DNA from: Anaerolineales bacterium
GTDB lineage: Bacteria > Chloroflexota > Anaerolineae > Anaerolineales > Villigracilaceae
Assembly: GCA_025056175.1 (NCBI GenBank)
Contig: JANWWK010000059.1
Location: 1 to 64,000, forward strand
Direction: 5' to 3'
DNA length: 64,000 bases
Below the pieces are notes generated by a model. The model was not told where the DNA came from, ran no database searches, and was given only the letters and a program-made list of their open reading frames with translations. This document shows, piece by piece, positions 5,274-15,824 of the stretch (positions are counted from its first letter, which is position 1; each line of letters begins with the position of its first letter). The translations under genes were made by a program, and so were the position numbers.

Positions 5274-6485
5274 TTATTTCACGCGCACGAAACGCCGTTT
5301 GCCCACCTGCAGCACGCCTGGGTGGGGAAACGGCATATCAGCTTTTTCCAACACCACGCCATCCAAACGCACGCCTTTCTGTTCGACCATGCGGCGGCCT
5401 TCCGATTTGCTCGTGACCAGAGCGGCCGCCAGCAGAACATCCAGCACGGTTTGACCGGGCTGAAGGGCATACTCCGGCATCTCTTCAGGAATCTGCCCCT
5501 GTTGAAAGAGCCGCACAAAGGCTTCCTGCGCCTGGTCGGCCTGCAACTCACTGTAATAAGTGGCTGTCACTTCCCAGGCCAGTTTCATCTTGGCATCGCG
5601 GGGATGCAAACTGCCAGATTGCAAGCCCGCCTCAAACGCCGCCACCTGTGCTGGCAACCAGCGCGTTACCAGACGAGCATATTGTGGCATGGCCGAATCA
5701 GGGATAGACATCACCTTGCCGTACATATCTTCTGGCGTGGAATTCAGGGGGATGTGATTACCCAGCGATTTGCTCATCTTGACCACACCATCCGTACCGG
5801 GCAGAATTGCCATGATAATCCCGATGTTCGGTTTTTCTCCCAGCGCTGTCATGATTTTGCGCCCGGCAGTGATGATGTTGAACAACTGGTCAGTACCACC
5901 TACCTGCACGTCTGTTTTGAGTGCAAACGCATCATATCCCTGCATGAGGGCGTAGAAAAACTCGTGCAGGTAAATGGCGTCCTCGTTATCCCAGCGTTTG
6001 CGGAACGATTCGCGGGTCAGGAATTGCTGAATGGTGAAATTCGAGCCAAGCTGAATCAGGTCAGCAAAAGTCAACCCAGAAAGCCATTCATGATTGTAGC
6101 GGATGGTGGTCTTCGAGCGGTCTAATACGCGAAACGCCTGCTCCGCATATGTCCGGGCGTTTTCCATCACCTGTTCTTGCGTAAGAAGGGGGCGCAGTTT
6201 GTCTTTGTCCGAGGGGTCGCCAATCAGCGAGGTGTACGTCCCTATCAGGAAGACCACCTCATGCCCTAAATCCTGAAACTGGCGCAATTTCCGCATGGTG
6301 ACGGTGTGACCAATATGCAGGTCTGAGGTGCGTGGGTCATAACCGCAATACACTTTAAGTTTACGGCCTTCTCGTTCGGCTTCGAGCAGGCGCTGGCGGA
6401 GTTCCATCTCCATCGTTTTACGCAGACCTTCATCGCCATATTCTGTGCCTTGCATCAAAAGGGCGACCTGTTCGTTGATGTCCAT
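5274..6485 (-). CDS. tyrS: Tyrosyl-tRNA synthetase
   Basis: YCGYDPRTSDLHIGHTVTMRKL, KMSKSLGN, C-terminal S4 domain; GGAGG upstream of ATG 6485 (alternative ATG 6497). Confidence 0.96.
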   Translation of the reverse strand: MDINEQVALLMQGTEYGDEGLRKTMEMELRQRLLEAEREGRKLKVYCGYDPRTSDLHIGHTVTMRKLRQFQDLGHEVVFLIGTYTSLIGDPSDKDKLRPLLTQEQVMENARTYAEQAFRVLDRSKTTIRYNHEWLSGLTFADLIQLGSNFTIQQFLTRESFRKRWDNEDAIYLHEFFYALMQGYDAFALKTDVQVGGTDQLFNIITAGRKIMTALGEKPNIGIIMAILPGTDGVVKMSKSLGNHIPLNSTPEDMYGKVMSIPDSAMPQYARLVTRWLPAQVAAFEAGLQSGSLHPRDAKMKLAWEVTATYYSELQADQAQEAFVRLFQQGQIPEEMPEYALQPGQTVLDVLLAAALVTSKSEGRRMVEQKGVRLDGVVLEKADMPFPHPGVLQVGKRRFVRVK

Positions 6486-14363: not shown

Positions 14364-15329
14364 ATGAAAACTCTGAAAAAACTCCTGCCTGGTATCATCA
14401 TCTTCCTGCTCCTCGCTCTCCTGCTGGGGCCGTTCCTTGTTCCTATTCCTCCGCTGGAAAACACCGTCAGCGAGCGCGAACTGGCTGACCCGGATAGCAG
14501 GTTCATCCCGGTCGGTGAATTGACCGTTCACTACAAACAAATGGGCAGCGGTGAACCGGTTTTCATCCTCCTGCACGGTTTTGGCGCTTCGACCTTCTCC
14601 TGGCGCGAGGTGATGGCACCATTCGCCGAACTGGGGCGAGTGATTGCCTACGACCGCCCAGCCTTTGGCCTCACGAGCCGTCCGATGCCCGGCGAGTGGA
14701 AAGGTCAAAACCCCTATAGCCCCGAATCTCAGGCTGCTATCGTCATCGGTCTGATGGATGCACTGGGCGTGGACACAGCCTGGCTGGTGGGCAATTCGGC
14801 TGGCGGAACGGTCTCCGTCTATACCGCCCTCACCTATCCCCAGCGCATCAGCGGCCTGATTTTAGTGGATGCAGCCATTTACACCGGCGGCGGCTCCCCG
14901 GGCTGGGTGCGTCCCCTGCTCGCAACACCCCAAATGCGTCGCATTGGGCCGCTTCTGGCACGGCAAATTGCTACCAGCGGCAACGATTTCATTCGCAGCG
15001 CATTTCACGACCCATCCCTGGTAACCCCGGAAGTTCTGGAAGGATACCGCAAACCCCTGCGCGCCCATAACTGGGACCGCGCTTTATGGGAACTGACGTC
15101 GGCCAGCCGTCCGCTGGGGTTAGCCGAACGTCTGAACGAACTGAACCTCCCCGTCCTGGTCATCACTGGTGATGACGACCGCATCGTGCCGACCGAACAA
15201 TCCATCCGCCTCGCCAATGAAATTCCTGGCGCGGCGCTGGCCGTCATCCCCAACGCCGGCCACTTGCCGCACGAAGAAAAACCCGCCGAGTTTATGCAAG
15301 CCGTGCGGGAGTTCCTCAAAAGCAGATGA
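14364..15329 (+). CDS. Alpha/beta-fold hydrolase
   Basis: LLHGFGASTFSWREV, VGNSAGGTV, VITGDDDRIVP, NAGHLPHEEKP; N-terminal TM. Confidence 0.88.
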   Translation: MKTLKKLLPGIIIFLLLALLLGPFLVPIPPLENTVSERELADPDSRFIPVGELTVHYKQMGSGEPVFILLHGFGASTFSWREVMAPFAELGRVIAYDRPAFGLTSRPMPGEWKGQNPYSPESQAAIVIGLMDALGVDTAWLVGNSAGGTVSVYTALTYPQRISGLILVDAAIYTGGGSPGWVRPLLATPQMRRIGPLLARQIATSGNDFIRSAFHDPSLVTPEVLEGYRKPLRAHNWDRALWELTSASRPLGLAERLNELNLPVLVITGDDDRIVPTEQSIRLANEIPGAALAVIPNAGHLPHEEKPAEFMQAVREFLKSR

Positions 15330-15353
15330 AAAGACAAACGGAGACCCCAACGG

Positions 15354-15824
15354 ATGACTGCGCTCCCCGCCCCTGATTTCGAGCTTCCCGATGTGCAAGG
15401 CAACCCCGTGCGCCTCTCGGATTTTCGCGGCAAGAAACACGTTGTGCTGGTGTTTCTGCGTGGGTTCATGTGACCGTATTGCCGCGCTCATCTCGCGCGC
15501 TTGCGCGATGATTACGCGGCCTTCACCGCGCGTGACGCGGAGATTCTCGCTATCGGTCCCGATGGCCCCAACGCCTACCGCCATTACTGGCGTGAAAACA
15601 GCCTGCCGTTCATCGGCCTGCCCGACCCCAAACACCGCGTGGCTGACCTGTACGGTCAGGAATGGAACATTTTCAAACTGGGGCGCATGCCTGCCTTGCT
15701 CATCGTGGACAAGAACGGCCTTATCCAATACCAATACTACGGCGATTCGATGAAAGACATCCCGGACAATGCACAAGTGCTGACCGAACTGGATAAACTC
15801 AATCGCCAGGCTAACCAGAGATAG
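15354..15824 (+). CDS. Peroxiredoxin-like (AhpC/TSA redoxin) candidate selenoprotein; UGA 15471-15473 read as Sec (UxxC)
   Basis: Single frame MTALPAPDFELPDVQGNPVRLSDFRGKKHVVLVFLRGFM-[UGA]-PYCRAHLARLRDDYAAF...GLPDPKHRVADLYGQEWNIFKLGRMPALLIVDKNGLIQYQYYGDSMKDIP; redoxin conserved on both sides of UGA; UGA replaces first Cys of CxxC. Confidence 0.72.
15481..15520 (+). promoter_or_regulatory. Candidate bacterial SECIS element
   Basis: GCCGCG...CGCGGC outer stem (6 bp), TCATC/GATGA and GCGC/GCGC inner stems, GCUU apical loop; apical loop begins 26 nt after UGA. Confidence 0.6.

Follow-up and report, generated by a model that had tools for sequence, protein, structure and literature searches.

Does the UGA at 15471–15473 end a short reading frame, or is it read as selenocysteine (Sec) within a longer protein? 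The question is raised by one gene in the window, i.e., the whole stretch of 64,000 nucleotides of Anaerolineales DNA that has been analysed, for which the original prediction had proposed one continuous redoxin across 15354–15824. Taken as a whole, the comparative sequence evidence makes it highly probable that the UGA is recoded as Sec, guided by a downstream hairpin, in a small peroxiredoxin-like (Prx-like) redoxin with a UxxC motif.

A Redoxin Gene Interrupted by UGA

Translation of 15354–15824 with TGA read as U has given a single 156-residue redoxin of the AhpC/TSA type, MTALPAPDFEL...VLVFLRGFM-U-PYCRAHLARLRDDYAAF...YGDSMKDIPDNAQVLTELDKLNRQANQR-stop, which is interrupted only by the UGA at 15471–15473, the sole in-frame UGA (codon 40), and which ends at a TAG (15822–15824). 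The proposed continuity has been borne out by the Pfam domain AhpC-TSA (PF00578), a single match of which covers both halves (residues 5–126, E 1e-27, 97 bits, cut-off 26). Ordinary ORF calling returns only the 3′ piece 15501–15824, as had been described; it has a TTG start, and the UGA indeed occupies the first position of the redox motif that had been written as (C)PYC, here read as U40-P-Y-C43. The redoxin frame opens at 15330, directly 3′ of the stop of the upstream gene, and its first start codon is the ATG at 15354. The features of the locus are as follows:

14364–15329, plus strand: upstream alpha/beta hydrolase gene directly before the redoxin gene, in a frame open from 14124 (sequence; neighbours in relatives)
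15340–15343, plus strand: GGAG, which lies 10 nt ahead of ATG 15354 and probably serves for ribosome binding (sequence)
15354–15824, plus strand: predicted Sec-containing Prx-like redoxin gene, 156 aa, U at residue 40 (translation; Pfam AhpC-TSA 1e-27; 132 homologous UGA loci)
15471–15473, plus strand: in-frame UGA at codon 40, putatively read as Sec, with which the UPYC motif begins (all Sec homologues have it in this alignment column; the orthologue L116 has Cys there)
15480–15482, plus strand: TGC encoding Cys43, the partner of Sec in the UxxC motif (conserved to at least 90%; replaced by Ala in the Syntrophaceae loci L027 and L028)
15493–15508, plus strand: core of the SECIS hairpin with the stem UCGCGC/GCGCGA and, at its apex, the loop GCUU (15499–15502; fold, conservation, covariation, covariance model)

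Several relatives, as well as Thermomicrobium roseum (33% identity), have a similar alpha/beta hydrolase neighbour upstream; a functional tie between the hydrolase gene and the redoxin is conceivable. On the other side, a conserved ORF of ~347 aa (MxLGxIAFLGSGETSLAGG...) follows the redoxin gene in L023, L024, L026, L036, and L050, and is absent after the gene of the window.

Predicted Fold, Active Site, and Proposed Reaction

The structure predicted by AlphaFold2 with Cys in place of Sec (pLDDT 90.4, pTM 0.87) suggests a peroxiredoxin/ResA-type thioredoxin fold; among solved structures it comes closest to Sulfolobus Bcp, M. tuberculosis AhpE, and Bacillus ResA, with query-normalised TM-scores of about 0.73–0.85 and identities of 20–27%. 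In this predicted structure residue 40 directly precedes the helix 41–52, and in the alignment with peroxiredoxins U40 falls on the Thr position of TxxC and Cys43 on the position of the peroxidatic Cys. A GR(M/L/I/V)P sequence ahead of a strand, GRMP in the window, is conserved in the family and resembles the cis-Pro loop of thioredoxin. Based on the UxxC motif and this loop, one may postulate that Sec40 at the N-terminus of the helix would be the nucleophile attacking a disulfide or peroxide, that Cys43 would resolve it as a selenenylsulfide, and that thioredoxin or a similar reductant would then reduce the latter. The putative role is most likely that of a thiol:disulfide oxidoreductase or of a thiol-dependent peroxidase in oxidant defence.

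Given Sec decoding, the product might also be a true peroxiredoxin, i.e., a peroxidase rather than a thiol:disulfide oxidoreductase, an alternative that concerns the reaction and not the recoding. It is possible though somewhat doubtful: the AhpC-TSA match and the peroxiredoxins Bcp and AhpE among the closest solved structures speak in its favour, whereas the PxxxTxxC motif is replaced by GFMUPYC, in which U stands for Thr and Cys43 takes the place of the peroxidatic Cys, the GRMP loop is thioredoxin-like, and ResA-type proteins match as well. Of the Sec peroxiredoxin with a UxxC motif that had been predicted originally, the Sec part has gained support from the Sec machinery, the conservation of the UGA, and the hairpin; the assignment to the peroxiredoxins has to be modified, as the motif is the thioredoxin-like one of the Prx-like UxxC proteins and not the classical TxxC or TxxU.

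Selenocysteine Machinery of the Host

The genome assembly of the host comprises 3.57 Mb in 95 contigs; among its relatives with a name, Anaerolineae MAGs are the closest. All four genes for which a search of the genome had been suggested, selA, selB, selC, and selD, have been found in it: selA (TIGR00474, 543 bits), selB (335 bits at a cut-off of 242), a single tRNA-Sec gene (selC; 76.4 bits with Rfam, anticodon TCA according to ARAGORN), and selD (361 bits). The selD gene carries an in-frame UGA of its own at LSSCAGU (L020 1531–1533, contig C31 of the host), and a hairpin with a GUU loop can be read 33 nt downstream of it. All gene tests identify the host as a Sec decoder. From the comparative evidence, SelB and Sec-tRNA-Sec would insert Sec at the UGA 15471–15473 under the guidance of the hairpin at ~15481–15520.

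The continuation of the frame past the UGA would equally be expected if the codon had been reassigned to Trp or Gly, or if a near-cognate tRNA read it through without any selenium. However, the preceding gene ends with a UGA (15327–15329), so the codon acts as a stop in this host; the orthologue L116 has Cys at the corresponding position, which is neither Trp nor Gly; tRNA-Sec with its TCA anticodon is present together with SelA, SelB, and a SelD that has its own UGA; and a conserved hairpin lies downstream of the UGA. We regard reassignment or readthrough as very improbable and retain the recoding of the UGA as Sec.

Conservation of the UGA in Homologues

A protein search of 298 Anaerolineae-class genomes, the hits of which have been fetched and realigned, has yielded strong homologues that nearly all contain an in-frame TGA. 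In 93 loci the TGA stands exactly at the codon aligned to residue 40, 20 further loci of this kind have come from the phylum, and the class to which a Syntrophaceae genome belongs has contributed another 20, giving a total of 133 UGA loci including the window (132 others) in Chloroflexota, mostly Anaerolineae, and in Thermodesulfobacteriota. The only Cys orthologue found is L116 in genome G289, a continuous protein in which the codon is TGC; in this sole non-UGA orthologue the UGA aligns with Cys, as the recoding idea had anticipated, and more distant peroxiredoxins have Thr or Ser at the position. The pairing of Cys and Sec at residue 40 is thus suggested by one sequence and by the distant peroxiredoxin and thioredoxin relatives. 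As Cys versions are rare, Sec seems hard to replace in this redoxin family.

The frame is intact around the UGA in the relatives, which had been named as the place to look for decay. Between the window and its nearest relative L023, with synonymous sites near saturation, dN/dS amounts to 0.037 over 30 codons before the UGA and 0.032 over 100 codons after it; values after the TGA range from 0.03 to 0.2 and point to purifying selection that persists downstream. A pseudogene with a nonsense mutation, or a TGA produced by a sequencing error, would leave a frame broken by a stop and mere fragments in the output of ORF callers, which is what is seen here, but the identical TGA codon in 133 loci of two phyla, the selection acting behind it, and the Sec machinery of the host leave such an origin with practically no probability. 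The earlier argument against a decayed pseudogene, drawn from intact sequence on both sides of the UGA, holds with the conserved TGA and the selected downstream frame, and a pseudogene is excluded in practice.

The Sec form has been found in 89 of the 298 class genomes, 85 of which also have selA (Fisher p 0.003, uncorrected for kinship); the other four are fragmented MAGs of 280–1110 contigs. Furthermore, selA has been detected in all six named relatives (L023–L028) and in all nine further genomes of the phylum with the Sec form. Genome G253, assembled in one contig, has neither the redoxin gene nor selA, and neither selB nor tRNA-Sec exceeds the cut-off in it. Over the whole sample, 256 of the 298 genomes have selA above cut-off and, together with the redoxin family, this indicates a widespread use of Sec in the class.

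Two genomes deserve a separate remark. In G289, the sole genome with the Cys form, selA contains an N gap (contig C6 30584–31485; L164) and selB is present; a loss of selA has been rejected, as the apparent split of the gene is this gap in the sequence, and no tRNA-Sec has been found there, the tRNA-Sec-like matches being tRNA-Ser. The host itself carries a second gene of this redoxin family, likewise with a UGA (L092 3594–3638; contig C9 20491–20931), which belongs to another subclade and has the usual AGUU hairpin (66.7 bits).

A SECIS Hairpin Downstream of the UGA

Behind the UGA the RNA can form a hairpin with the core UCGCGC-GCUU-GCGCGA (15493–15508) within a longer predicted fold (15481–15520). 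The segment 15465–15525 has a minimum free energy (MFE) of -24.1 kcal/mol compared with a mean of -17.95 for shuffled sequences (z -2.24); the shorter 40-nt fold has a z of -0.65, below significance, and the longer fold is the stronger one. The bSECIS model quoted in PMC13188914 calls for a loop of 3–9 nt, an upper stem of 4–16 bp, a G in loop positions 1–2, a spacing of 16–37 nt between UGA and loop, and an MFE of -7.5 kcal/mol or lower. In the window the loop GCUU (15499–15502) has 4 nt and begins with G, the stem has a 6-bp core and 9 bp when one bulge is included, the spacing amounts to 25 nt (15474–15498), and the above MFE lies well under the limit. The loop G is followed by C and not by the usual G/U; most relatives have AGUU, in which the next base is G/U. 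No RNA family of Rfam has matched at the UGA at gathering or relaxed thresholds, and therefore the evidence for the SECIS element has been built from the relatives. The hairpin for which a SECIS search had been recommended is accordingly present and conserved, and it agrees with the published bSECIS rules and with a covariance model, albeit without an Rfam match.

That the UGA is instead a regulated stop under the control of the hairpin, so that a peptide of 39 aa and a C-terminal fragment with a start of its own are made, is extremely improbable, for although the TTG-started ORF 15501–15824 exists, this fragment would be part of a single folded domain without its first strands and its active site, the hairpin obeys the SECIS rules and co-occurs with the Sec machinery, and the Cys orthologue L116 is one continuous protein.

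In the relatives the usual hairpin is UGGCGC-AGUU-GCGCCA, located at the same place as the core in the window. Four observations reveal selection that acts on the RNA. All six stem pairs are formed by 90% of the real genes but by 10% of synonymous shuffles, which preserve the protein sequence and the codon usage of the family. The codon choice is likewise biased: the loop Leu is encoded by TTG in 77 of 86 genes, a codon used for 170 of the 802 other Leu residues of these genes, and Ala at +24 is encoded by GCG in 86 of 87 cases compared with 247 of 774. Among 40 sequences, 97.5% of the cells are paired, with a covariation score of 0.253 versus 0.142 after shuffling (0/500) and at most 0.086 for slid structures. 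In genes with a Leu codon at +21, the third base of this codon goes with position +36: G is combined with C in 23 genes and C with G in 13, with no CC and one GG combination. The stem is maintained through compensatory, partly synonymous changes. The p-values of these covariation analyses are optimistic, as the sequences are related and not independent; their direction is uniform.

A covariance model of 30 sequences, from which the near relatives of the window have been left out, matches the window at 15471–15515 with 47.2 bits (E 2.3e-16), much of which is likely due to conservation of the coding sequence; the next match has 9.9 bits, and the Cys orthologue L116 reaches 10 bits. RNAalifold has found no consensus structure for all 93 early sequences, probably owing to a mixture of two hairpin registers; separating the registers solved the problem.

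Relation to Known Selenoproteins

A Prx-like selenoprotein family in which a thioredoxin-like UxxC replaces TxxU has been described from the Sargasso Sea metagenome in 2005 (PMC1088965), and later papers give the class as a predicted one (PMC1794560, PMC9312934, PMC13188914). With these Prx-like thiol:disulfide oxidoreductases (PF00578, UxxC/UxxU; PMC1088965, PMC1794560, PMC13188914) the redoxin shares the Pfam domain, the UxxC motif, and Sec at the first position, and this class has likewise been reported in Thermodesulfobacteriota (Syntrophus, Geobacter). By domain and motif the gene belongs to this class (representative WP_010940744.1). It differs in that the subfamily of the window has the motif RGFxUP(Y/F/H)C, a ratio of 133 UGA to one Cys, and a distribution centred on Anaerolineae.

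The Sec peroxiredoxins with TxxU (PrxU, Eubacterium acidaminophilum Prx) have in common with it the AhpC/TSA fold and an active-site Sec; in the window, however, Sec would take the place of Thr, three residues ahead of the peroxidatic position. The NF040737 score is 23.7 at a cut-off of 270, and the classical PxxxT/SxxC(U) motif is absent, with U taking the place of Thr in GFMUPYC. The best match in NCBIfam is SelL/SelL-related (NF040769; 71.1 bits, E 8.5e-20), found for all 24 of 24 family members scanned, but the window scores under the curated cut-off of 120, and its second motif position is Cys (UxxC), whereas SelL has Sec (UxxU). ResA/TlpA oxidoreductases and the Bcp and AhpE peroxiredoxins are similar in predicted fold; ResA has CxxC and Bcp/AhpE have TxxC, none of them with Sec, in contrast to UxxC here. 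None of the NCBIfam models matches the gene over its cut-off, and no description of the subfamily has been found in the open-access literature on the selenoproteomes of Anaerolineae and Chloroflexota. That the gene represents a new, unannotated subfamily of the known Prx-like selenoprotein kind is a well-supported reading of the sequence comparisons.

On the plasmid NC_011961.1 of T. roseum, the RefSeq ‘hypothetical protein’ WP_012643006.1 (545266–545394; L163 2971–3099) ends at the corresponding UGA (545392–545394), the usual hairpin follows, and no gene is listed for the remainder. WP_012643006.1 seems to be the N-terminal part of the same selenoprotein, cut short at the UGA. Even in this cultured relative the protein is thus shortened or overlooked by gene finders, and recognition of the family restores a redox enzyme in the sampled class genomes with the Sec form.

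A Moved Hairpin in the Sister Clade

Twelve genes of the window's family (L036, L043, L044, L050, L051, L056, L066, L071, L076, L087, L109, and L127) are without the usual stem and have GCGCGC-AGUUG-GCGCGC nearer to the UGA, at +13 to +29. The loop starts at +19, i.e., 16 nt after the UGA, which is the lower edge of the published range, and the shift brings the hairpin 9 nt closer than usual. In the protein tree these 12 genes form one clade (support 100/99), which is sister to the five-gene clade of the window (99/92). As read from the sequences, the hairpin has taken the GUU of its loop along, and another pair of residues encodes it. One may picture a distinct, unannotated Prx-like selenoprotein subfamily, nearly always with Sec across Chloroflexota, in which the SECIS element has been displaced (loop start from +28 to +19, GUU at a different protein position) so that the RNA element has shaped the protein sequence, a proposal to which we would give an even chance. 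The moved hairpin offers a natural experiment on the freedom of a SECIS element to shift within a coding region.

Some members diverge at the motif itself. In the Syntrophaceae loci L027 and L028 (near 6001–6444) it is UPYA; the partner Cys is missing and Ala stands in its place, and an external thiol would therefore be needed. Their hairpin also seems different (CAUCUG-GGC-CAGAUG). Entries with two TGA codons have been considered as UxxU candidates and rejected, as the second TGA merely terminates the gene in those that have been read. Further divergent members are L119 with UGPC, L128 with URHC, L107 with UMYC, and L113 with a larger hairpin.
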